NCBI RefSeq assembly: GCF_004363655.1
Contig: NZ_SNZH01000017.1
Location: 62,001 to 126,000, forward strand
Source: Tahibacter aquaticus
GTDB lineage: Bacteria; Pseudomonadota; Gammaproteobacteria; Xanthomonadales; Rhodanobacteraceae
Direction of reading: 5' to 3'
Length of the DNA: 64,000 nt
Shown: positions 1,288-10,407 of the stretch, one piece after another
Layout: every line of letters begins with the position of its first letter
How positions within the stretch are numbered: position 1 is the first letter of the stretch
Notes under the pieces: model-generated
Seen by the model: the letters and a program-made list of their open reading frames with translations, nothing else
Told to the model about the DNA's origin: nothing
Databases searched by the model: none
Program-made: the position numbers and the translations under genes

Positions 1288-2550
1288 TCAGGGGCGTGCG
1301 GCACGCGGCGCGGGGCTGTGTCGCGGCAGGCGTTCGGCCACGGTTTCTTCCAACTCCGCCACGGCACGGCGCAGTCGCGCAGTCGTCGCGGTAGTGCGCG
1401 CCGGTGCCGGCTGCAGGCCGGCGATCAGGCTGCGTGGCTGCTGCAGTTCGGCCTCGTCCAGTGCCAGGCCGTGCCGCGCCAGCAGCGGCTGCAGCGCTTC
1501 GCGGCGGGCGTAGAGATCACTACGGGTGGTGCGGTAGGCGTGTTCGGCCACTTCGACACGGTTGTCGTAGGAGAACACGTTGCTGAAGAACATCTGGGCA
1601 TCATCGGCATTGGGTTCGAACAAGACGATGTCGGCTGCCGCGTACTTGTGTGCATATTTGGACAAACCTGCCTGCATGCGCGACTGCAGCAAGGCACGGA
1701 AGGTCTGCGACAGCACCGCCGGCAAGCCGCCTTCGGCCAGGCTGGCGCGCCGGCCCTGGCCCTCGGCGACGGCCGTGTCGAACGGCACCAGCGGATTGAT
1801 GCCGATGACCAGGTCGGCGCCTTCGTCCAGCGCGGCCGACGCATGCAAGGTGCGCTGCAGTGCACCGTCGACGTAGAGTTTGTCGCCGATGCGGACTGGC
1901 GGATACAGGCCGGGCAGGGCGGCGCTGGCCTGGATTGCACGGGAAATCGGCACGGCGTCATGACCGGCACCGCCGAAGCGCACGGCCTTGCCGCTGTCCA
2001 GCTCTACCGCGATCACATAGAGCTTGCGTGTCAGCGTACGAAAATCGTTGCTGCGGCCCTCGCGGCTGAAAATGTCGCGCAGGAAGGCCTCGATGTTCTG
2101 GTTGTCGAACAGGCCGGTCGGCAGCAGGCGGCCGAGGCGGCCGAGGTTGTCGCTCAGCGATACGTGCAGCGGGCGGCGTGCAAACTCGGCGGCACCTTCC
2201 AGCAGCACGCCGGGAATGCGCCAGAGCCGGCGCAGGTATTCGCTCAGCGCCGGCTGTACGAATAGATCGGGACGAAATTGCGCCTGGTGCGATTCGCCGG
2301 TGAGAAAGATGCGGCACATCTCGGCCATGCTGAGCTGGTTGGCCAGCCCCGCCGCGATGAACGCGCCGGAACTGACCCCGACATATACATGCAGCCGGGT
2401 CGGCGCCAGGCCAACGACGGCTTCTTCCAGAGCGCGCAGTGCACCCAGCTCGTACATGCCGCCGAGGGGGCCGCCGCCGGCCACGGCCAGGCCGATGCGG
2501 GTAGGGCGGGCGTTGTGCTGCGGCGCCGAGGCGGCCTGGATGGCGAGCAT
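1288..2550 (-). CDS. Patatin-like phospholipase/esterase
   Basis: A 420-residue hydrolase of the patatin family, which cleaves acyl esters with a Ser-Asp dyad. The oxyanion-hole glycines are at about residues 25-30 (GGGPLGG), the nucleophile in GVSSG (Ser60), and the catalytic Asp in VDGAL (Asp228). No signal peptide or membrane segment is seen, so it is probably cytosolic or on a granule surface. The region after about 330 contains helices and an Arg/Ala-rich end. Lying between a phasin and a PHA-system gene on the same strand, it could act on PHA granules or on lipids; the sequence alone does not decide this. No strong ribosome site precedes the ATG. Confidence 0.85.
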   Translation of the reverse strand: MLAIQAASAPQHNARPTRIGLAVAGGGPLGGMYELGALRALEEAVVGLAPTRLHVYVGVSSGAFIAAGLANQLSMAEMCRIFLTGESHQAQFRPDLFVQPALSEYLRRLWRIPGVLLEGAAEFARRPLHVSLSDNLGRLGRLLPTGLFDNQNIEAFLRDIFSREGRSNDFRTLTRKLYVIAVELDSGKAVRFGGAGHDAVPISRAIQASAALPGLYPPVRIGDKLYVDGALQRTLHASAALDEGADLVIGINPLVPFDTAVAEGQGRRASLAEGGLPAVLSQTFRALLQSRMQAGLSKYAHKYAAADIVLFEPNADDAQMFFSNVFSYDNRVEVAEHAYRTTRSDLYARREALQPLLARHGLALDEAELQQPRSLIAGLQPAPARTTATTARLRRAVAELEETVAERLPRHSPAPRAARP

Positions 2551-2637
2551 GGGAGTCCGGTGTAGGCGGTTATCCGGCTGATTGTGCGTGCAGCCGGCCT
2601 CGCCGCAAAGCTGTCGCTTGGTCGAAGATGCTTTTGT

Positions 2638-2919
2638 TCACGCGGTGCCGAAATGCTGGACCAGGCGTTTCTGGATTTCCTGCTCCACCGCGGGCTTGAG
2701 CAGCGACAGAAGAAAGCCGAGTTCCGCCGTCACATGCACCAGGCCTTTCTCCAGCGCGATCTGGCCGTTGACGCCGGAGCGCTGGAAATGCAGCACGTTG
2801 CCCTTCCAGTCGTAGGTCAGGTCGAATTTCTTGGATATCTCGGCAGCCACTTCGGTGACGGCGACCTTGGCTTCCTTGACGGGTTTGGCGTGCTTGTGAC
2901 GTATATCGATCGAGGGCAT
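2638..2919 (-). CDS. Polyhydroxyalkanoic acid system family protein
   Basis: A 93-residue protein matching the small family named for PHA systems: MPSIDIRHKHAK, then AKVAVTEVAAEISKKFDL, a YDWKGNVLHFQRSGVNGQI core and a C-terminal amphipathic segment ending in QKRLVQHFGTA. The family occurs beside phasins and PHA synthases; its molecular activity is not established. The ATG chosen removes an unlikely upstream extension and has AGGA about nine bases before it. It is the first gene of the phasin/patatin group as transcribed on the minus strand. Confidence 0.8.
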   Translation of the reverse strand: MPSIDIRHKHAKPVKEAKVAVTEVAAEISKKFDLTYDWKGNVLHFQRSGVNGQIALEKGLVHVTAELGFLLSLLKPAVEQEIQKRLVQHFGTA

Positions 2920-2947
2920 TGCAGGCGTCCTGGCTGGTCTGGCGGGC

Positions 2948-2975
2948 TTGTGGCGATGGGGCTTTGCACTATGAT
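2948..2975 (+). promoter_or_regulatory. Candidate sigma-70 promoter toward the cupredoxin/kinase cluster
   Basis: TTGTGG and TATGAT are separated by 16 bp. The site faces the cupredoxin gene and would give a 5' UTR of about 200 nt. The gap between the divergent PHA-system and cupredoxin genes is the natural place for the cluster promoter. Confidence 0.4.
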
Positions 2976-3183
2976 GCCCCAGGCGACGAATGCGGCGTGA
3001 TGCGCTGCCGCACGAGGCCGTGGATGGCGGCTGCGGCGCACAATTCAAGTTGCGCCGCGGCGCGGTATGACCACGGCGTGTACGCAGGGGCATCTCTGTA
3101 ACGTTCGGTTAGGCTGGCGCTGACGGGTTTGCGGCAGCAGCCATCGGCGGATGCGCCGGGCAACGGGTGGAGGAGACGGATAC

Positions 3184-3843
3184 GTGAGATCGCTGCTGTG
3201 GGCAGGCTTGCTGCTGGCCGGAAGTGCCGGCGCCGCCACGATCGAAGGCCAGGTCACGCTGTATCTGGACGGCAAGCCGCTGCGGCCGGAAGAGGCGGCC
3301 GAAGCCGTCGTGTATTTTCGTCCCGCTGCCGCCGTGACGGTGCCGGCGGCACCGCCGCCGGTCGAGATGGTCACCCTGCGCAAGCAGTTCTCGCCGCGCA
3401 TCCTGCCGGTCACGGTCGGCACCGAAGTGCGTTTTCCGAACCAGGACCCGATCCTGCACAACGCTTTCTCGACCTCGAAAGACAATGGCTTCGACATCGG
3501 TCTGTACGGCCAGGGCGAAGGCAAGGCGCAGCGCTTCGATCATCCAGGCTACGTGCGGGTCTACTGCAATGTGCACCATTCCATGGTCGGCCATATCCTG
3601 GTGCTCGATACGCCGTATTTCGTGCGGCCTGACGCGCAAGGCAGGTTCCGCCTGAAGGATCTGCCGGCCGGCAAGGGCGACCTGGTGGTATGGCTGGACC
3701 GTGCCACACCCTGGCACGCGCAGCTGGTCGCGGGCAAGGCCGAGGCGCAGGCGGTAAAGCTGGAACTGGCACAAAAAAAGATTCCTCCGCATATGAACAA
3801 ATTCGGCAAGCCCTACGGCAGGAGCGGCGATGGCGGCTATTGA
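3184..3843 (+). CDS. Exported cupredoxin (methylamine utilization protein-like)
   Basis: A 219-residue protein with an N-terminal signal peptide (RSLLWAGLLLAGSAGAA) and a plastocyanin-like copper domain. Expected type-1 copper ligands are His92 (in ILHN) and Cys128, His131 and Met134 in YCNVHHSM. It belongs to the group often labelled methylamine utilization protein, but no methylamine genes are near. The start is GTG with GGAGGAG eight bases upstream. The end overlaps the kinase gene by 14 bp, so the two are translationally linked. A periplasmic copper or redox protein feeding a membrane kinase is an inference from this linkage. Confidence 0.8.
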   Translation: MRSLLWAGLLLAGSAGAATIEGQVTLYLDGKPLRPEEAAEAVVYFRPAAAVTVPAAPPPVEMVTLRKQFSPRILPVTVGTEVRFPNQDPILHNAFSTSKDNGFDIGLYGQGEGKAQRFDHPGYVRVYCNVHHSMVGHILVLDTPYFVRPDAQGRFRLKDLPAGKGDLVVWLDRATPWHAQLVAGKAEAQAVKLELAQKKIPPHMNKFGKPYGRSGDGGY

Positions 3844-6523
3844 GGGCTACCGGCGCCAGCGCGGCTTCGCCCTGCCGCTGGCGATCCGCTTCTTTCTCGC
3901 CACGGCCCTGCTGATCCTGCTGGCGGTCAGTGCCGCCATCGTCGTCACCTATGTTCAAGGCCAGCGCGTCGCGGCGCGGGCGATCGGCAAGACCTTGTCC
4001 ACCAGCGTCGCCGCACAGCGCGAATTCGAGCAGCACCGGTTGGAACAGCTGGAGCTGAGCTTGCGCCTGGTCGCCTCCGACGCCAGCTTCGTCAAGTACA
4101 TCGCCGACGCCAACAGCTCGAGCAACCTGCCTGGCCTCGGCGGCGATGCGGCGCCGGACACCATGTCCATGCGCGACCTGCTCGGTGACCGGCAGAAAGA
4201 TATCGGCTTCAGCCTGGGCATCCTGCTCGACGGCAAGGGCGAAGTGCTGGCGCGCACCGACCAGGCCGATGCGTTTACCGAATCGCTGGCGGCCGATCCG
4301 CTGGTGGCCCCGGCCCTGGCCGAGGCACGGCCGCTGAGCGGCTACTGGCGCCAGAACGACAAACTGTTCCAGGCCGCCATCGTGCCGCTGGCGCAGGACC
4401 AGAACGTGGTCGGCTTCCTGCTGCTGGCCCAGACCGTGGACGACGAGCTGGCGCGCAAGGTCGCCCAGGTCAGCGGCGCGGAAATCGCCTTCTGGATGCC
4501 GCTGGCGGGGAAGCCGGCGCTGATCGCCAGTTCCTTCGATTCGGCGGCGGCGAGTCAATTGCGCGAAACGGTGAAGAGCTCGCCCGGCCTGCCGTCTGCC
4601 GCGTCTGCGGCGGACGGCACGCATATCGACCTGGGCGGACAGGACTGGGTGGCGCGCATGGCGCCGACCGCCGCTGCCGATGCAGCCGAGCTGGGCCAGC
4701 TGATGGTGCTGGCCTCGTCCGACCAGGTGGTTGCGAGCTACCGTGCCATTCTCAACAGCGTGGTACTCGGTGGCCTGGTCACCTTGCTGCTGGCCCTGCC
4801 GCTGTCGTACCTCATATCCAAGGGCATCCTGCGCCCGGTCAGTGCCATGGCCAGCGCGGCCGAGCAGGCTGCGGCGGGCAATTTCCAGACCCGCCTGGGC
4901 ACCGCCGGTCAGGACGAACTGGCGCGGCTGGCGCGCGCTTTCGATTCGCTGCTGTCCGATCTGCGCGAAAAAAGCGACATGGAAGGCTATGTCGGCAATC
5001 TCGCGCGCTTCCTGCCCGAGCCCGGCCAGGAAGGCTCGGGCGTCGTCGTACATACCCAGCCGCTCAAGCAGTCGACGCCGCCGCGGCGCGATGCACTGGT
5101 CTTGCTGGGACTGGAGTACCGGCAGCTGCTCAGCCTGCCCGCGCATACCCCGCCCGAGCAGGTGCTGGAGGAAAAGGCCCGCATACAGACGCGTCTTGCC
5201 GCGGCAGCGGCCGCAGCGGACGGCGTGCTGCTGGCGGCGCCGGGCGGACGCTGGACGCTGGCGTTCCCAGGGCCGCAACGCCTGCTGCATGCCCTGCAGC
5301 TATTGCGCGACGAATTTGCCCAGGCAGCGCCGCCGGCGGCGGCGCTGGCCGACGGTGACTTGGTGCTGTCCGAGGCGGGCGAGGGCAGCCAGCTGGTCGG
5401 TGCGGCCCAGGTGCAGATCGATCGCCTGCTCTGCGATGCGGCACCGGGCCAGGTACTGGCCGGGCGCAGCACCGGCGAAAGCCTGCGCAGCGAATACGGT
5501 AGCGACTCGGTCGCGGTTGCCACCGGTGGCTTCAGCAGCAAGCAGTTCTATGCACCCAGCGCGGCGCTGCTGCAGCGCCTGCCGCACGCGGAAGCGCCGG
5601 AGCGGCTCGCGCAGGACAACGACACCGTGCCGCGCGGCAGTGCCGCGATCACGCCGCGCAGCGCCGCCGCCGCGCGCAGCCTGCGCGACAGTGGCGAACT
5701 GGCGCCGGGTTCCACACTGGGTGGGCGCTACCGCGTGCTGTCGGTGCTCGGCGCCGGCGGCATGGGCGTGGTGTACAAGGCGCACGATCTCGAACTCGAC
5801 GACGTCGTCGCGCTGAAGATGCTCAAGCCCGGCGCACTGCTCGACGCGGAACAGCTGGACCGGCTCAAGAGCGAAATCAAGCTGGCCCGCCGCATCACCC
5901 ATCCGAACGTGCTGCGTACGTTCGATTTCGGCGAGGTTAACGGCCTGCCGTATATCTCGATGGAATACGTGCGCGGCATGACCCTGCGCTACCTGCTGCG
6001 CGAGGCCAAGCGCGTGCCGTATTCGGCCGGACTGCGTATTGCGCGGCAACTGGCGGCTGGCCTGGCAGCGGCGCACGAAGTCGGTGTGCTGCACCGGGAC
6101 ATCAAGCCGGAAAACCTCATCCTCGAAGCCAATGGCAACGCCAAGCTGATGGACTTCGGCATTGCCCGGCCGGCCCGTCGCGCGACACCGGGGCATACCC
6201 AGCCCGGCACCTTCCTCGGCACGCCGAATTACTGCGCGCCGGAACAACTGGCCGGCGAAGAAGTGGACGAAGGTGCGGATATCTATGCCTGCGGCGTTCT
6301 CATGACTGAGATGTTCTGCGGCGCACTGCCGTACAGCGGGTCCAATACCATGGAGATCTATATGGCCCAGATGCAGCAGGAACCCGCGCGGCCGTCGGTT
6401 TTATGGCCGGAAATCCGGCCAGAGCTGGAAACGCTGATCCTGAGCTGCCTCAAGCGCAATCGCGCCGAGCGACCGGCCAGTGCGGCCGAACTGGCTGCGT
6501 CGCTGACGCAGCTGAGGGCGTGA
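3830..6523 (+). CDS. Transmembrane sensor Ser/Thr protein kinase with HAMP and degenerate cyclase-like domain
   Basis: An 897-residue kinase. Order: TM1 (about 12-42), periplasmic Cache-like sensor (about 45-300), TM2 (about 305-330), HAMP (about 331-385), a 180-residue region resembling a class III nucleotide cyclase without catalytic residues (about 415-600), then a Hanks-type kinase domain (about 630-897). Kinase motifs are complete: Gly-rich loop GAGGMG (from 641), Lys663, HRDIKPEN with Asp757, DFG with Asp775, and GTPNYCAPEQ. The kinase is cytoplasmic and C-terminal, unlike PknB-type kinases with C-terminal extracellular sensors. It overlaps the upstream cupredoxin gene and is two bases from the downstream barrel gene. 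The FHA protein is the obvious phosphothreonine reader. Confidence 0.88.
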   Translation: MAAIEGYRRQRGFALPLAIRFFLATALLILLAVSAAIVVTYVQGQRVAARAIGKTLSTSVAAQREFEQHRLEQLELSLRLVASDASFVKYIADANSSSNLPGLGGDAAPDTMSMRDLLGDRQKDIGFSLGILLDGKGEVLARTDQADAFTESLAADPLVAPALAEARPLSGYWRQNDKLFQAAIVPLAQDQNVVGFLLLAQTVDDELARKVAQVSGAEIAFWMPLAGKPALIASSFDSAAASQLRETVKSSPGLPSAASAADGTHIDLGGQDWVARMAPTAAADAAELGQLMVLASSDQVVASYRAILNSVVLGGLVTLLLALPLSYLISKGILRPVSAMASAAEQAAAGNFQTRLGTAGQDELARLARAFDSLLSDLREKSDMEGYVGNLARFLPEPGQEGSGVVVHTQPLKQSTPPRRDALVLLGLEYRQLLSLPAHTPPEQVLEEKARIQTRLAAAAAAADGVLLAAPGGRWTLAFPGPQRLLHALQLLRDEFAQAAPPAAALADGDLVLSEAGEGSQLVGAAQVQIDRLLCDAAPGQVLAGRSTGESLRSEYGSDSVAVATGGFSSKQFYAPSAALLQRLPHAEAPERLAQDNDTVPRGSAAITPRSAAAARSLRDSGELAPGSTLGGRYRVLSVLGAGGMGVVYKAHDLELDDVVALKMLKPGALLDAEQLDRLKSEIKLARRITHPNVLRTFDFGEVNGLPYISMEYVRGMTLRYLLREAKRVPYSAGLRIARQLAAGLAAAHEVGVLHRDIKPENLILEANGNAKLMDFGIARPARRATPGHTQPGTFLGTPNYCAPEQLAGEEVDEGADIYACGVLMTEMFCGALPYSGSNTMEIYMAQMQQEPARPSVLWPEIRPELETLILSCLKRNRAERPASAAELAASLTQLRA

Positions 6524-6525
6524 GC

Positions 6526-7653
6526 ATGCGCGAACCGAGGCGATGGGGGCGGGTGGCAAGTGCGGGCGTGCTGCTGCTGGCTGCGGCCCTGGCTGGCGAG
6601 GCGCTGGCCCAGGACAGCATTCTGGCGGGCAGCGCCGAGGAAACGGCGGCGGAAGATCACGCTGCTGGCGGCTGGAGCTGGTTCGGCGATGCACTGCTGC
6701 GCTACGACCATGTCGAAGGCCTGCCCGGCGATCGCACAGTCAGCCGCTGGCGCAGCCGCGGCCGGCTCGGCGGCGAATACGCCGCCATGCCGACCTTGAG
6801 TTTCGGTGCGGCGATCGAACTGGCCCAGGGCAGCGACGACAACGCCACCAACCGCATCAACAACGACAACGAACGCAGCGACGGCGCCAATCTCGACCAG
6901 TTCTGGCTGCGCTGGCAGCCGCGCGAACAGACCCGCGTACTGCTGGGCAAGGCACCGTTTCCGCTGGAACTGTCGCCGCTGACCTGGGATGCGGACCTGC
7001 GTCCGGCCGGCATCAGCCTGGACCAGTCCTTCGCCCTGGGCGACTACAGCCGGCTGCAACTGACTGTCGGCGGCTTCGCCGCGCAGCACCTGTACGACGA
7101 CGACACGCGCATTGCCGCCGCCCAGCTGGCCTGGCGCTGGCGCGAAGGCGCGCCGTCGAATGCGGCAGTGCTGCTGAGCTATCTGGATTTTTCCGACCTC
7201 GGCCAGCTCACCCGGCAGGGCCTGACCCGTACCAACCGGCGCCTGCCGGCCAACGGGCCGTTACTCAGCGACTACCGCCTGCTCGATCTGCAACTGGTTG
7301 GCCGCACCCAGTTCGGCGAATGGCCGCTGGAGGCGCGTCTGGATCTGGTACGCAACCTCGGTGCCGACGACCAGCGCGACGGCGCACGCTTCAGCCTGGT
7401 ACTGGGCAGCCGCCTGCGCGCCGGCGGCTGGGAGTTCGGCTATTCCAACCAGCGTATACAGCGTGACGCCGTGCTGGCCGCATTCAACGAAGACGATTGG
7501 TGGTTCCACTCTTTCACGCATGGCTACATGCCGTGGATAGGCTATGGCCTGGACGAAACCTGGAATCTTCGCCTCGCCGCGTTCCACGAGCTGCGCAACG
7601 GTCTGCCCCAGCATACCGACCGCATCCTGCTGGACCTGGGCGCACGCTGGTAA
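6526..7653 (+). CDS. Putative outer-membrane beta-barrel (porin-like) protein
   Basis: A 375-residue protein with a signal peptide (VASAGVLLLAAALAGEALAQ) followed by alternating polar and aromatic strands such as FWLRWQPREQTRVLLGKAPF and AAQLAWRWREG, and a final LLDLGARW ending in an aromatic residue as barrel proteins do. It resembles porins of the alginate-export/DUF type. The substrate is unknown. The ATG lies two bases after the kinase stop, so it is in the same operon. The partner role is unclear: it could admit or export the signal sensed by the kinase. Confidence 0.68.
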   Translation: MREPRRWGRVASAGVLLLAAALAGEALAQDSILAGSAEETAAEDHAAGGWSWFGDALLRYDHVEGLPGDRTVSRWRSRGRLGGEYAAMPTLSFGAAIELAQGSDDNATNRINNDNERSDGANLDQFWLRWQPREQTRVLLGKAPFPLELSPLTWDADLRPAGISLDQSFALGDYSRLQLTVGGFAAQHLYDDDTRIAAAQLAWRWREGAPSNAAVLLSYLDFSDLGQLTRQGLTRTNRRLPANGPLLSDYRLLDLQLVGRTQFGEWPLEARLDLVRNLGADDQRDGARFSLVLGSRLRAGGWEFGYSNQRIQRDAVLAAFNEDDWWFHSFTHGYMPWIGYGLDETWNLRLAAFHELRNGLPQHTDRILLDLGARW

Positions 7654-7728
7654 TCCTTGCTGGTAATCCCCGGGGGCGCTCATGCTAAATTGCCATCGCG
7701 TTAATCTACGGAGTGGGCCGGTCAGCTG

Positions 7729-8610
7729 ATGGAAATTCGCGCGCGCATGAGCTTTCCCAACGGCGAGCACGCCGATTTCGTGCTGACGCCTGGCGTTTGT
7801 GGAATAGGCTCCGATAGGGACAATCAGATTGTTCTGTCCAGCCCGGGCATCGCGCCGCACCATGCGCGCATCGAAGTCGACGGGCGCGGGCTTACCTTGA
7901 ACGTTCTCGACGCCAAGGCCCACACGCATCTGAATGCACGGCCCGTGCGCGAGAAGGGCATAGTCCGGCTCGGCGACGTGCTCAGCATCGATGCGGTGCA
8001 GATCATGATCAAACCCGAGCGCGACGAGGTTATCCGCACGGCCGTTCCCGACAGCGGCGCCAGCGCCGACACGGCGGAGACGCGCGCGCGCGCAGTGCCC
8101 CCCAAGGTCGTATTGCGCGGCGTATCGGGCAGCCAGTTCGGCCGCATCGTGCCGGTGCGCGGCCGCCTCACCATAGGCCGCGGCAACGAATGCGACCTGA
8201 GCCTGGACGAGCCGGAAATGTCGCGCAAGCACGCGATGATCGAAAACAACGGTGACGGCATCTACCTGCGCGACCTGGGTTCGTCCAACGGCACTTTCGT
8301 CAACGGCGTGCAGGTGCGCGACGCGGTACTGCATCCTGGCGACCAGATCGCGTTCGACCGCAACCGCTTCCTGCTCGAAGCACCGGGCCTGCCGCTGCGG
8401 GGCGAACTGGTGGAAGAGCGCAGCCCGGGCTTTGCCCCGGCCATCACCCAGACCATGCAGGCAGTCAACCTGCCCGATCTCAAGCCGGCGCGGCCTGCTG
8501 CTGCGCCGCCGGTGGAGTCCAGCGCAAACCGCAACGAGATCTGGTGGCTGATCGCTGCGGCCGGCCTGATCGGCGGGGCGATTGCACTGCTGCTGCTGTA
8601 CGGCTTCTGA
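7729..8610 (+). CDS. Tail-anchored double FHA-domain protein
   Basis: A 293-residue protein with two forkhead-associated folds and a C-terminal membrane anchor. The first FHA (about 8-85) is degenerate. The second (about 115-215) is canonical, with TIGRGNECDL, SRKHAMI and LGSSNGTFVNG, the residues that bind phosphothreonine. A single hydrophobic segment (IWWLIAAAGLIGGAIALLLL) ends the protein, so the FHA domains face the cytoplasm. It sits 75 bp after the barrel gene; TAAAT with an upstream TG in the gap could give it its own promoter. It is the likely phosphothreonine-dependent partner of the nearby kinase. Confidence 0.87.
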   Translation: MEIRARMSFPNGEHADFVLTPGVCGIGSDRDNQIVLSSPGIAPHHARIEVDGRGLTLNVLDAKAHTHLNARPVREKGIVRLGDVLSIDAVQIMIKPERDEVIRTAVPDSGASADTAETRARAVPPKVVLRGVSGSQFGRIVPVRGRLTIGRGNECDLSLDEPEMSRKHAMIENNGDGIYLRDLGSSNGTFVNGVQVRDAVLHPGDQIAFDRNRFLLEAPGLPLRGELVEERSPGFAPAITQTMQAVNLPDLKPARPAAAPPVESSANRNEIWWLIAAAGLIGGAIALLLLYGF

Positions 8611-8664: not shown

Positions 8665-9315
8665 TTACTCTGCCTTGCGCAATGTCGGCGGGTTGGCCGC
8701 TGCGCGTTGCGGCAGCCAGCGTTGCCAGGGCAGCCGCGCTGCCATCAGGGCCAGGTAGATGCCGAGATAGATCAGCGGTTCGCGCACCGCGATCTTCTGG
8801 CCCGATTTCACCAGCCATAAATAGTGCAAGACTGCACAAATGCCAACCAGGTAGACCAGTTTATGCAGACGGCCCCAGTTCCGGCCGAGCCGCCGCATCA
8901 TGCCCCGGGTCGAGGTGATCGCCAGCGGCAGCATCAGCAGCCAGGCGGAAAAACCCACGGTGATGTACGGCCGCTTGAGGATTTCCTCGAACAGCTGGCG
9001 CCAGAAAGCGCCCAGGTCGATCACCAGATAAATGCCCAGATGCACGCTGGCATAGAAGAACGCGAACAGGCCCAGCATGCGGCGCAAGCGCAACACTACG
9101 GCCTGGCCGCTGAGCTGGCGCAGCGGCGTCACGGCCAGGGTCAGCAGCAGCAGGCGCAGCGCCCAGTCGCCGCTACGGTGTTCCAATTGGGCGACCGGGT
9201 CGGCTCCCAGCTGATCGTGCAGGGTGTCCCAGAGCAACAGCACCAGCGGCAGCAGGCACAGACTGAAGACGATGGCCTTGGCGGCAGCGATGCGGCGATC
9301 GAAAGGTTTCGTCAT
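8665..9315 (-). CDS. msrQ: MsrQ, heme membrane subunit of periplasmic methionine sulfoxide reductase
   Basis: A 216-residue integral membrane protein of the YedZ/MsrQ family that passes electrons from the quinone pool or flavin to MsrP. Several TM helices are visible (AIVFSLCLLPLVLLL, LLLLTLAVTPL, MLGLFAFFYASVHLGIYL, YLVGICAVLHYLWLV), with heme-ligand His residues in the SVHLG, LHKLVY and VLHYLW helices. Its ATG overlaps the msrP stop (ATGA), so the two are co-translated. It converges with the FHA gene with a 54-bp gap. Confidence 0.93.
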   Translation of the reverse strand: MTKPFDRRIAAAKAIVFSLCLLPLVLLLWDTLHDQLGADPVAQLEHRSGDWALRLLLLTLAVTPLRQLSGQAVVLRLRRMLGLFAFFYASVHLGIYLVIDLGAFWRQLFEEILKRPYITVGFSAWLLMLPLAITSTRGMMRRLGRNWGRLHKLVYLVGICAVLHYLWLVKSGQKIAVREPLIYLGIYLALMAARLPWQRWLPQRAAANPPTLRKAE

Positions 9316-10298
9316 CAGTAGTTCGCGCGCAGGTTCATGCCGGCGTAGAGCGAAGCCACCTCGTCGGCATAGCCGTTGAAGGGCAGGGTGGCAATGCGCT
9401 TGGCGAACAGGCTGCCGCCGCTGCCGGCAATGCGCCGTTCGCTGGACTGGGTCCAGCGCGGATGATCCACCGCAGGGTTCACATTGGAATAAAATCCATA
9501 TTCGCTGGGCCCGGCGATATTCCACGACGTTGACGGCTGGTTTTCCCAGAACTCGATTCGCACGATGGACTTGGCACCCTTGAAGCCGTATTTCCACGGC
9601 ACCACCAGGCGCAGCGGTGCGCCGTTCTGGTTGGGCAGCGCACGGCCGTACAGGCCGACCGCGAGCATGGCCAGCGGATGCATGGCCTCGTCGATGCGCA
9701 GGGCTTCGCGGTACGGCCAGTCGAGCACGTCGTAGGCCAGCCCGGGCATTTCCTGCGGCCGGTTGACGGTGGTAAAGGCGACATATTTCGCGCGCGAGGT
9801 TGGCTTGAAGCGCTTCAGGCATTCGCCCAGCGGAATACCGATCCAGGGAATCACCATCGACCAGGCTTCGACACAGCGGTGACGGTAGATACGTTCCTCC
9901 AGCGTGTGCGGCTTGAGCAGGTCCTCCAGGCTGAACCGGCCGATGACTTCGGCGTGGCCGGCGACTTCCACGGTCCACGGCTGCGGCTGGAAGCGGCCGG
10001 CATGACGTGCGGGATCGCCCTTGCCGGTACCGAATTCGTAGTAGTTGTTGTAGCTGGTCGCATCGCGCCAGCTGGTGAGTTCTTCCTTGCTGTCCCAGCG
10101 CGAATTCCGGGTAGCAGGAAGAACCGCGCCGCTGGGGCCGCTATCGGCTGGCGCACCGGCATCGCCGCCGCTGCTGCAGCCGCTGGCCAGCAACGGTGCC
10201 AGCAGGCCCAGGCCACGCAGGAACCCGCGCCGCTGCAAGTAGACAGACTCCGGCGTGATGTCGGAGCCGGCAATCGGGGCAACTCGGTATGGCTTCAT
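9315..10298 (-). CDS. msrP: MsrP, periplasmic molybdopterin methionine sulfoxide reductase
   Basis: A 327-residue molybdoenzyme that repairs oxidised methionines in envelope proteins. It carries a twin-arginine signal (QRRGFLRG, residues 22-29, then a hydrophobic stretch ending LLASGC). The molybdenum-ligating Cys is Cys142 in YRHRCVEAW. The start MKPYRV is preferred to a GTG seven codons upstream, because it leaves a normal-length leader and has GAGA just upstream. It pairs with msrQ. The molybdopterin genes mobA, moeA and moeB are also in this window. Confidence 0.93.
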   Translation of the reverse strand: MKPYRVAPIAGSDITPESVYLQRRGFLRGLGLLAPLLASGCSSGGDAGAPADSGPSGAVLPATRNSRWDSKEELTSWRDATSYNNYYEFGTGKGDPARHAGRFQPQPWTVEVAGHAEVIGRFSLEDLLKPHTLEERIYRHRCVEAWSMVIPWIGIPLGECLKRFKPTSRAKYVAFTTVNRPQEMPGLAYDVLDWPYREALRIDEAMHPLAMLAVGLYGRALPNQNGAPLRLVVPWKYGFKGAKSIVRIEFWENQPSTSWNIAGPSEYGFYSNVNPAVDHPRWTQSSERRIAGSGGSLFAKRIATLPFNGYADEVASLYAGMNLRANY

Positions 10299-10407
10299 GG
10301 CAAGGTCTCGTTTTTCCACCAGACCGGTATCAGTGCAGCGATCTTTCAGGCGGGGCTGGCGATGCGTACAGCCGCAGATATACTCGGGTCAAATCAGTCG
10401 ATGCCGA

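Follow-up and report, generated by a model that had tools for sequence, protein, structure and literature searches.

A cupredoxin, a receptor kinase and an outer-membrane barrel form a conserved cassette in Tahibacter aquaticus, one branch of a family with varying signal output

In a 64,000-nucleotide stretch of the Tahibacter aquaticus genome (hereafter the window), three adjacent genes encoding a cupredoxin, a transmembrane receptor kinase and an outer-membrane barrel are a real, conserved cassette, and the set belongs as one branch to a family in which the cupredoxin, the dCache_3 sensor half and the barrel recur and the output of the receptor is exchanged or lost. The original prediction had described a signalling unit of four genes over several compartments, with a copper protein at one end and an FHA protein at the other. 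On re-reading the window, the four genes, their coordinates and their spacings (Table 1) were all borne out; the unit itself holds for the cupredoxin, the kinase and the barrel, which are conserved together, but not for membership of the FHA gene. The grouping goes beyond chance for the first three genes, and for the fourth such an excess was not established. The source genome (7.27 Mb) carries 49 Pkinase matches at 1e-3. A promoter scan of the locus returned 0 promoter-like sites, and a terminator scan returned 8 terminator-like sites against 3.2 expected, all lying within coding sequence and none usable.

Table 1. Genes and protein domains of the locus, in positions of the window
Feature	Position	Strand	Remarks
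PHA-granule gene	2638-3093		The cassette sits between this gene and the FHA gene (7729)
Type-1 cupredoxin gene	3184..3843	+	GTG at 3184, eight bases 3' of AGGAG; signal peptide; tail HMNKFGKPYG
Receptor Ser/Thr kinase gene	3830..6523	+	897 aa; 14-bp overlap with the cupredoxin gene
dCache_3, periplasmic	4031..4720	+	Receptor residues 68-297; E 5.1e-7
HAMP	4814..4969	+	Receptor residues 329-380; E 8.1e-11
Putative pseudocyclase	5075..5578	+	About residues 416-583; class III nucleotidyl cyclase fold lacking the second metal Asp
Hanks-type kinase domain	5729..6481	+	Residues 634-884; Pkinase 1.5e-52; catalytic residues intact
Barrel gene, porin-like (Porin_5)	6526..7653	+	ATG at 6526, two bases past the kinase stop (2-bp gap); 16 strands, C-terminal Trp; Porin_5 4.4e-8, above cut-off
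FHA gene	7729..8610	+	Double-FHA, tail-anchored protein; 75-bp gap after the barrel gene
MsrP and MsrQ	within 8665-10319	opposite	Domain matches

The first gene encodes an exported periplasmic protein which is a type-1 cupredoxin by a ligand test in its plastocyanin-like sequence, with copper binding predicted. The putative ligands H103, C139, H142 and M145 (numbered from position 3151) are invariant in 25 divergent homologues, and the set of His, Cys, His and Met is kept in 112 of 112 homologues, of which 104 were recognised by pattern and 8 were read individually. A single-sequence search of Pfam, NCBIfam and PHROGs gave no match at 1e-3; at a looser threshold, Copper-bind was found in 16/16 cupredoxin orthologues, the window protein scoring 19.8 bits against a cut-off of 21.2. 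The cupredoxin profile matched the C-terminal domain of a copper nitrite reductase at 5.6e-5; its matches to plastocyanins (0.0019) and amicyanins (0.04) were weaker.

The receptor encoded by the second gene is built of a periplasmic sensor, a HAMP domain, a middle domain and a kinase. A single-sequence search with its periplasmic part found no sequence relative in the PDB, and the dCache_3 matches in the window (30.0 and 33.5 bits) lie above the curated Pfam cut-off of 25.7. The middle domain, which had been overlooked in the original prediction, is read as a pseudocyclase preceding the kinase. When modelled with 26 orthologous segments it reached a mean pLDDT of 85.0, mostly 90-98 in the core, and all 50 PDB matches listed for the model are cyclases, the cyclase domain of GC-A among them; the best match has Z 18.0 with an rmsd of 2.7 over 162 residues. 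At the same place, two Acidobacteriota orthologues match Guanylate_cyc above its cut-off. Catalysis by class III cyclases depends on two metal-binding Asp residues; the first Asp is Glu in the window, and the second position lacks Asp in 24 of 24 sequences aside from L109 and L117. The cyclase fold together with the absent second metal Asp therefore suggests the pseudocyclase reading. The kinase domain is apparently a Hanks-type Ser/Thr kinase with predicted activity, as the VAIK Lys, HRD Asp and DFG Asp are kept in 29 of 29 aligned sequences, and Thr-Val motifs in the kinase linker are candidate phosphosites. Its identity as a PASTA kinase (PknB/Stk1) was rejected, since the model NF033483 scored 293.9 bits against a cut-off of 450, with the kinase part alone (627-894) being aligned.

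The third protein is an outer-membrane porin by its predicted signal peptide, antiparallel barrel and aromatic C-terminus. The signal peptide was recognised by eye, and the predicted structure (mean pLDDT 85.7, pTM 0.85) shows 16 strands and resembles porins such as OmpM1, OmpT and OprB.

Conservation of the cassette was surveyed in 117 genomes of the bacterial family. A cupredoxin match at E 1e-3 was obtained in 69 of them, and in 16 it is close (at least 60% identity). In all of the close loci the cupredoxin and kinase genes are adjacent, and the barrel gene follows in all but two that are cut by contig ends; the three genes lie side by side in Tahibacter, Dokdonella, Rudaea, Chiayiivirga and others. 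The family set comprises 41 loci, one locus plus 40 regions picked mainly, not strictly, by rank from the list of these cupredoxin matches. A further named set of 38 loci was retrieved by means of two short motifs, the NKFGKP tail being one, and 14 of the 38 were taken as the same records as loci of the family set. In the named set the kinase gene stands directly downstream of the cupredoxin gene in 30 of 38 loci; of the remaining eight, two have truncated receptors (L083, L106), one ends after the cupredoxin gene (L107), and in five (L111, L113-L116) none was found. The cupredoxin-kinase pair also occurs on contigs of metagenome-assembled genomes (MAGs) labelled Deltaproteobacteria (L105; also Myxococcota), Gemmatimonadetes (L108) and Acidobacteria (L109, L110, L112, L117), and misbinning is possible for the loci outside Lysobacterales because nearly all of them are single MAG contigs.

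The window's own genome has a second cupredoxin cassette (L039, C16, 6483-9880), whose kinase lacks the HRD Asp and is hence a pseudokinase. Behind this cassette come DUF3034 and a truncated hemoglobin in which a signal peptide was recognised by eye. Another genome (G059) has four cupredoxin loci, each arranged differently (L050, L056, L072, L079): with a kinase receptor, with a receptor lacking an output, with no receptor found, and with a GGDEF-EAL receptor.

For the wider family, a profile of 25 cupredoxins was searched against 398 Pseudomonadota genomes and matched 87 of them at 1e-8, with scores grading from full-length family members down to ordinary small cupredoxins. The sample analysed consists of the 54 places of at least 134 bits among 60 better-scoring regions, the six below 134 bits (L174-L179) being left out, and 20 weaker, ordinary cupredoxin matches of the same search served as controls to which the same seeds were applied. 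A receptor gene lies directly downstream of the cupredoxin gene in 44/54 loci of the sample versus 1/20 of the ordinary cupredoxins. A barrel of the seed families occurs within the stretch in 45/54 versus 0/20, where the barrel and histidine-kinase seeds came from loci of the cupredoxin family and one of each, barrel seed L131 and histidine-kinase seed L169, from the sample itself (42/54 without the L131 seed). A receptor, a barrel or both are found in 51 of the 54 loci and both in 38, with no barrel detected in 9; over all 60 regions, the counts are 45 with a downstream receptor and 47 with a barrel. In ten sample loci no receptor was detected directly downstream. Of these, L144 is truncated by the end of its contig, neither a receptor nor a barrel accompanies L148 and L157, and L169 does have a hybrid histidine kinase, separated from the cupredoxin gene by a gene for a CCP_MauG di-haem peroxidase; L130, L134, L136, L139, L156 and L160 have a barrel but no receptor by the cupredoxin. 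Two slightly weaker full-length homologues among the regions left out (L174, L179) carry DUF3034 and a globin with no receptor.

DUF3034 together with a globin gene accompanies 30 of the 54 sample loci. The truncated hemoglobins beside these cassettes (L039, L055-L061, L119-L173 and others) look exported: the N-termini read by eye, 38 out of 43, appear to bear a signal peptide or a Cys motif of the lipoprotein type. Globin and peroxidase are absent from the window's own branch. As a separate observation, L191 and L178 have smaller or weaker-scoring cupredoxins directly upstream of GGDEF-EAL and histidine kinase genes.

What these loci share in the receptor is the sensor half. A dCache_3 match at E 1e-3 within the first 320 residues, obtained for 39/44 downstream receptors (40/45 with the window), is the main evidence for it, and the sensor half of the window with its HAMP domain, used as a single-sequence query, was found in 19 of the 44. 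The dCache_3 profile gave no match in the other 5/44; the two histidine-kinase receptors had no dCache_3 match on a full-length scan, and the L055 receptor, which lacks an output domain, had no Pfam match. In L108, L112 and L039 the dCache_3 match stays below the curated cut-off. The dCache_3-HAMP half precedes a cyclase in L131 and L147 and a GGDEF-EAL output in L068 and L128. As to the outputs of the 44 receptors, 41 are GGDEF/EAL, 2 are cyclases and 1 is a hybrid histidine kinase. In GGDEF-EAL receptors the EAL motif is mostly intact (EAL-RW in 53/58) and the exact GGDEF motif is often missing (present in 19/58), so that the output is probably mainly c-di-GMP hydrolysis, as judged from these motifs.

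A tree of the family was calculated from 112 rows, after dropping near-duplicates, contig-cut loci and rows below 130 bits, by a quick method with a midpoint root and many weak forks. In this tree a kinase branch of 42 rows stands apart from the GGDEF-EAL branch, and parsimony counts six changes of output and ten changes of barrel type. The variants of the output are GGDEF-EAL, cyclase, Ser/Thr kinase, hybrid histidine kinase, pseudokinase and none. Receptors without an output domain make up 9 of the 112 rows, and the L039 pseudokinase groups with them inside the kinase branch; from these receptors and the pseudokinase paralogue in the window's genome it follows that the transmembrane protein may do more than signal. 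The kinase branch is also typified by the cupredoxin tail HxNKFGKPY: the tail motif NKFGKPY occurs in 29/31 kinase-type cupredoxins versus 0/54 of the GGDEF-EAL type, the frequency in the motif-fetched set being biased because that set was fetched partly with the NKFGKP motif itself. The tail is present also in five rows without a receptor downstream (L111, L113-L116), and its distribution might fit a docking element.

Taking these data together, we propose that the first three genes constitute an envelope signalling cassette over three compartments, in which the cupredoxin would serve as a periplasmic co-receptor for the envelope redox state; judged from sequence, we give this reading an even chance. 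The cupredoxin would be a dedicated co-receptor in the periplasm, and its copper redox state or occupancy would be set by envelope redox chemistry involving an oxidant, NO or O2. The dCache domain would read the state of the cupredoxin, and the HAMP domain and the pseudocyclase would pass the signal on to the kinase, while the barrel would let a small reactant in or anchor the complex as its contact in the outer membrane. No role as a kinase substrate is assumed for the FHA protein. Either a redox or a copper signal is plausible for the cassette, and we favour redox, given that other parts of the family repeatedly have globins and a peroxidase as partners.

The place of the FHA gene bears on an alternative, in which all four genes form a phosphosignalling unit: a target would be phosphorylated by the kinase and then read by the tail-anchored FHA protein. 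The pThr pocket of FHA domains is marked by Arg, Ser, His and Asn-Gly motifs. The window protein matches the FHA domain at 1.2e-33 in two stretches, of which FHA2 carries the pocket motifs and FHA1 lacks the Arg; its linker contains a conserved ITQTMQA stretch, a candidate phosphosite. That FHA2 retains these motifs in most of 11 aligned orthologues, that an FHA orthologue exists in 16/16 cassette-bearing family genomes, and that the gene lies next to the cassette in the same orientation both in the window and in 10/22 named loci with a Porin_5-type barrel found (one other being contig-cut) would all suit such a unit; yet FHA2 is degenerate in L104 despite an intact kinase there, and the linkage argues otherwise. 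Of the 117 family genomes, 31 have a close FHA orthologue (at least 42% identity along most of the length), 16 with the cassette and 15 without, and 101 have any FHA homologue at 1e-20, many of these just 30-40% identical. Among the 16 cassette-bearing genomes the gene is adjacent to the cassette in 7 and elsewhere in 7 (once on the same contig, at a distance of about 31 kb), and in 2 the contigs end too early for its position to be read. The 7 genomes with the gene elsewhere belong to other genera, and there it lies directly by a PHA-granule gene and serC, with msrQP too in 3/7; in genomes without a close cupredoxin, the PHA-granule/FHA pair is uninterrupted by a cassette in 14/14 regions (the 15 cassette-free genomes minus one fragment, G103); msr genes occur in 10 of these stretches and serC in 9. 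In 21/21 regions inspected the FHA gene is thus next to the PHA-granule gene and none of the other three genes is there, and the cassette therefore fills a site that is empty in those 21 genomes. The original prediction depended on the four genes being kept together in related genomes, which does not hold for the FHA gene, and its membership in the cassette was rejected on linkage, with the orthologue still kept in all cassette genomes. The FHA gene probably belongs, as a syntenic neighbour, to a PHA-granule / FHA / msrQP / serC block outside the cassette, and we regard the four-gene unit as distinctly improbable; a functional link between the FHA protein and the cassette is possible, because of the adjacency in several genera and the orthologue in 16/16 cassette genomes. 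The same block accounts for msrPQ, whose proposed position beside the cluster was right; as a functional partner it was rejected, since it travels with the FHA block and not with the cassette. Two genomes belonging to the window's genus also have a more distant paralogue of the FHA protein, whose gene follows closely on that of another Ser/Thr kinase (L207, 5637-6434; L208, about 5224-5886).

Two other explanations concern the signal and the chemistry. The cupredoxin could report periplasmic copper availability or excess instead of the redox state, which would agree with a type-1 copper site complete in every homologue examined and with L046, where an FTR1-like permease gene and two small copper-protein-like genes were recognised by eye about 4-6 kb upstream of the cassette (1550-3365). 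However, apart from L046, the neighbourhoods inspected by eye showed no recognisable genes for copper efflux, oxidases or chaperones, and the recurrent partners are haem proteins, so a copper sensor seems rather unlikely. It is also conceivable, if unlikely, that the cupredoxin and the barrel, elsewhere with globin or peroxidase, carry out envelope chemistry as an electron-transfer or detoxification unit, which the receptor regulates or by which it is regulated. The six sample loci that have a barrel but no receptor by the cupredoxin point in this direction, as do L174 and L179, the globin genes in 30/54 loci and the existence of receptors without an output; on the other side, the receptor still lies directly downstream in 44/54 loci, and the kinase catalytic residues are kept throughout the 29 aligned sequences.

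If the cupredoxin acts as a co-receptor, the cassette would have relatives in function among receptors that work with a binding protein of the periplasm, LuxP/LuxQ and TorT/TorS being examples. As in those systems, an exported soluble protein is encoded next to a membrane receptor whose sensor domain lies in the periplasm; unlike them, the soluble protein here is a type-1 copper protein by its ligands, a barrel is encoded too, and the output varies by branch and includes a Ser/Thr kinase. The closest annotated arrangement is in plasmid records where a 'methylamine utilization protein' stands with an EAL-domain gene, one of the two records having also DUF3034 and a group 1 truncated hemoglobin. 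The cupredoxin is homologous, the receptor gene follows directly, and 39/44 comparable sensor halves match dCache_3, but these loci have a GGDEF-EAL output and another outer-membrane partner, and no signalling role is named for them, whereas the window belongs to the kinase branch. In receptor guanylyl cyclases such as GC-A, a pseudokinase precedes an active cyclase. The window receptor likewise combines a kinase fold and a cyclase fold in one chain and would be the mirror image of GC-A, with a putative pseudocyclase before an apparently active kinase. The kinase domain aligns with those of PknB-type transmembrane Ser/Thr kinases (NF033483), from which the receptor differs by its dCache_3-HAMP-pseudocyclase part. 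The component families are known, and the large family of this arrangement is apparently undescribed: the original prediction did not recognise it as a described system, and the part of the open-licence literature that was searched yielded no description either, which is weak evidence of absence.

How bacteria read the redox state of the periplasm is poorly known. We tentatively suggest, as somewhat less than an even chance, that these loci represent a new class of envelope receptor over several phyla, in which a blue-copper protein and a barrel, often with an exported hemoglobin, would sense for a dCache_3-HAMP receptor whose output has been changed repeatedly. If this is true, the redox state of a periplasmic metalloprotein would be converted into the host's own second-messenger or phosphorylation system. 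With one conserved sensing half on several outputs, the same input is testable by c-di-GMP, cyclase and Ser/Thr kinase read-outs. It is also worth caution that the annotation 'methylamine utilization protein' can mask a signalling partner, and the family may give a role to DUF3034 and the apparently exported truncated hemoglobins, which are its recurrent neighbours.
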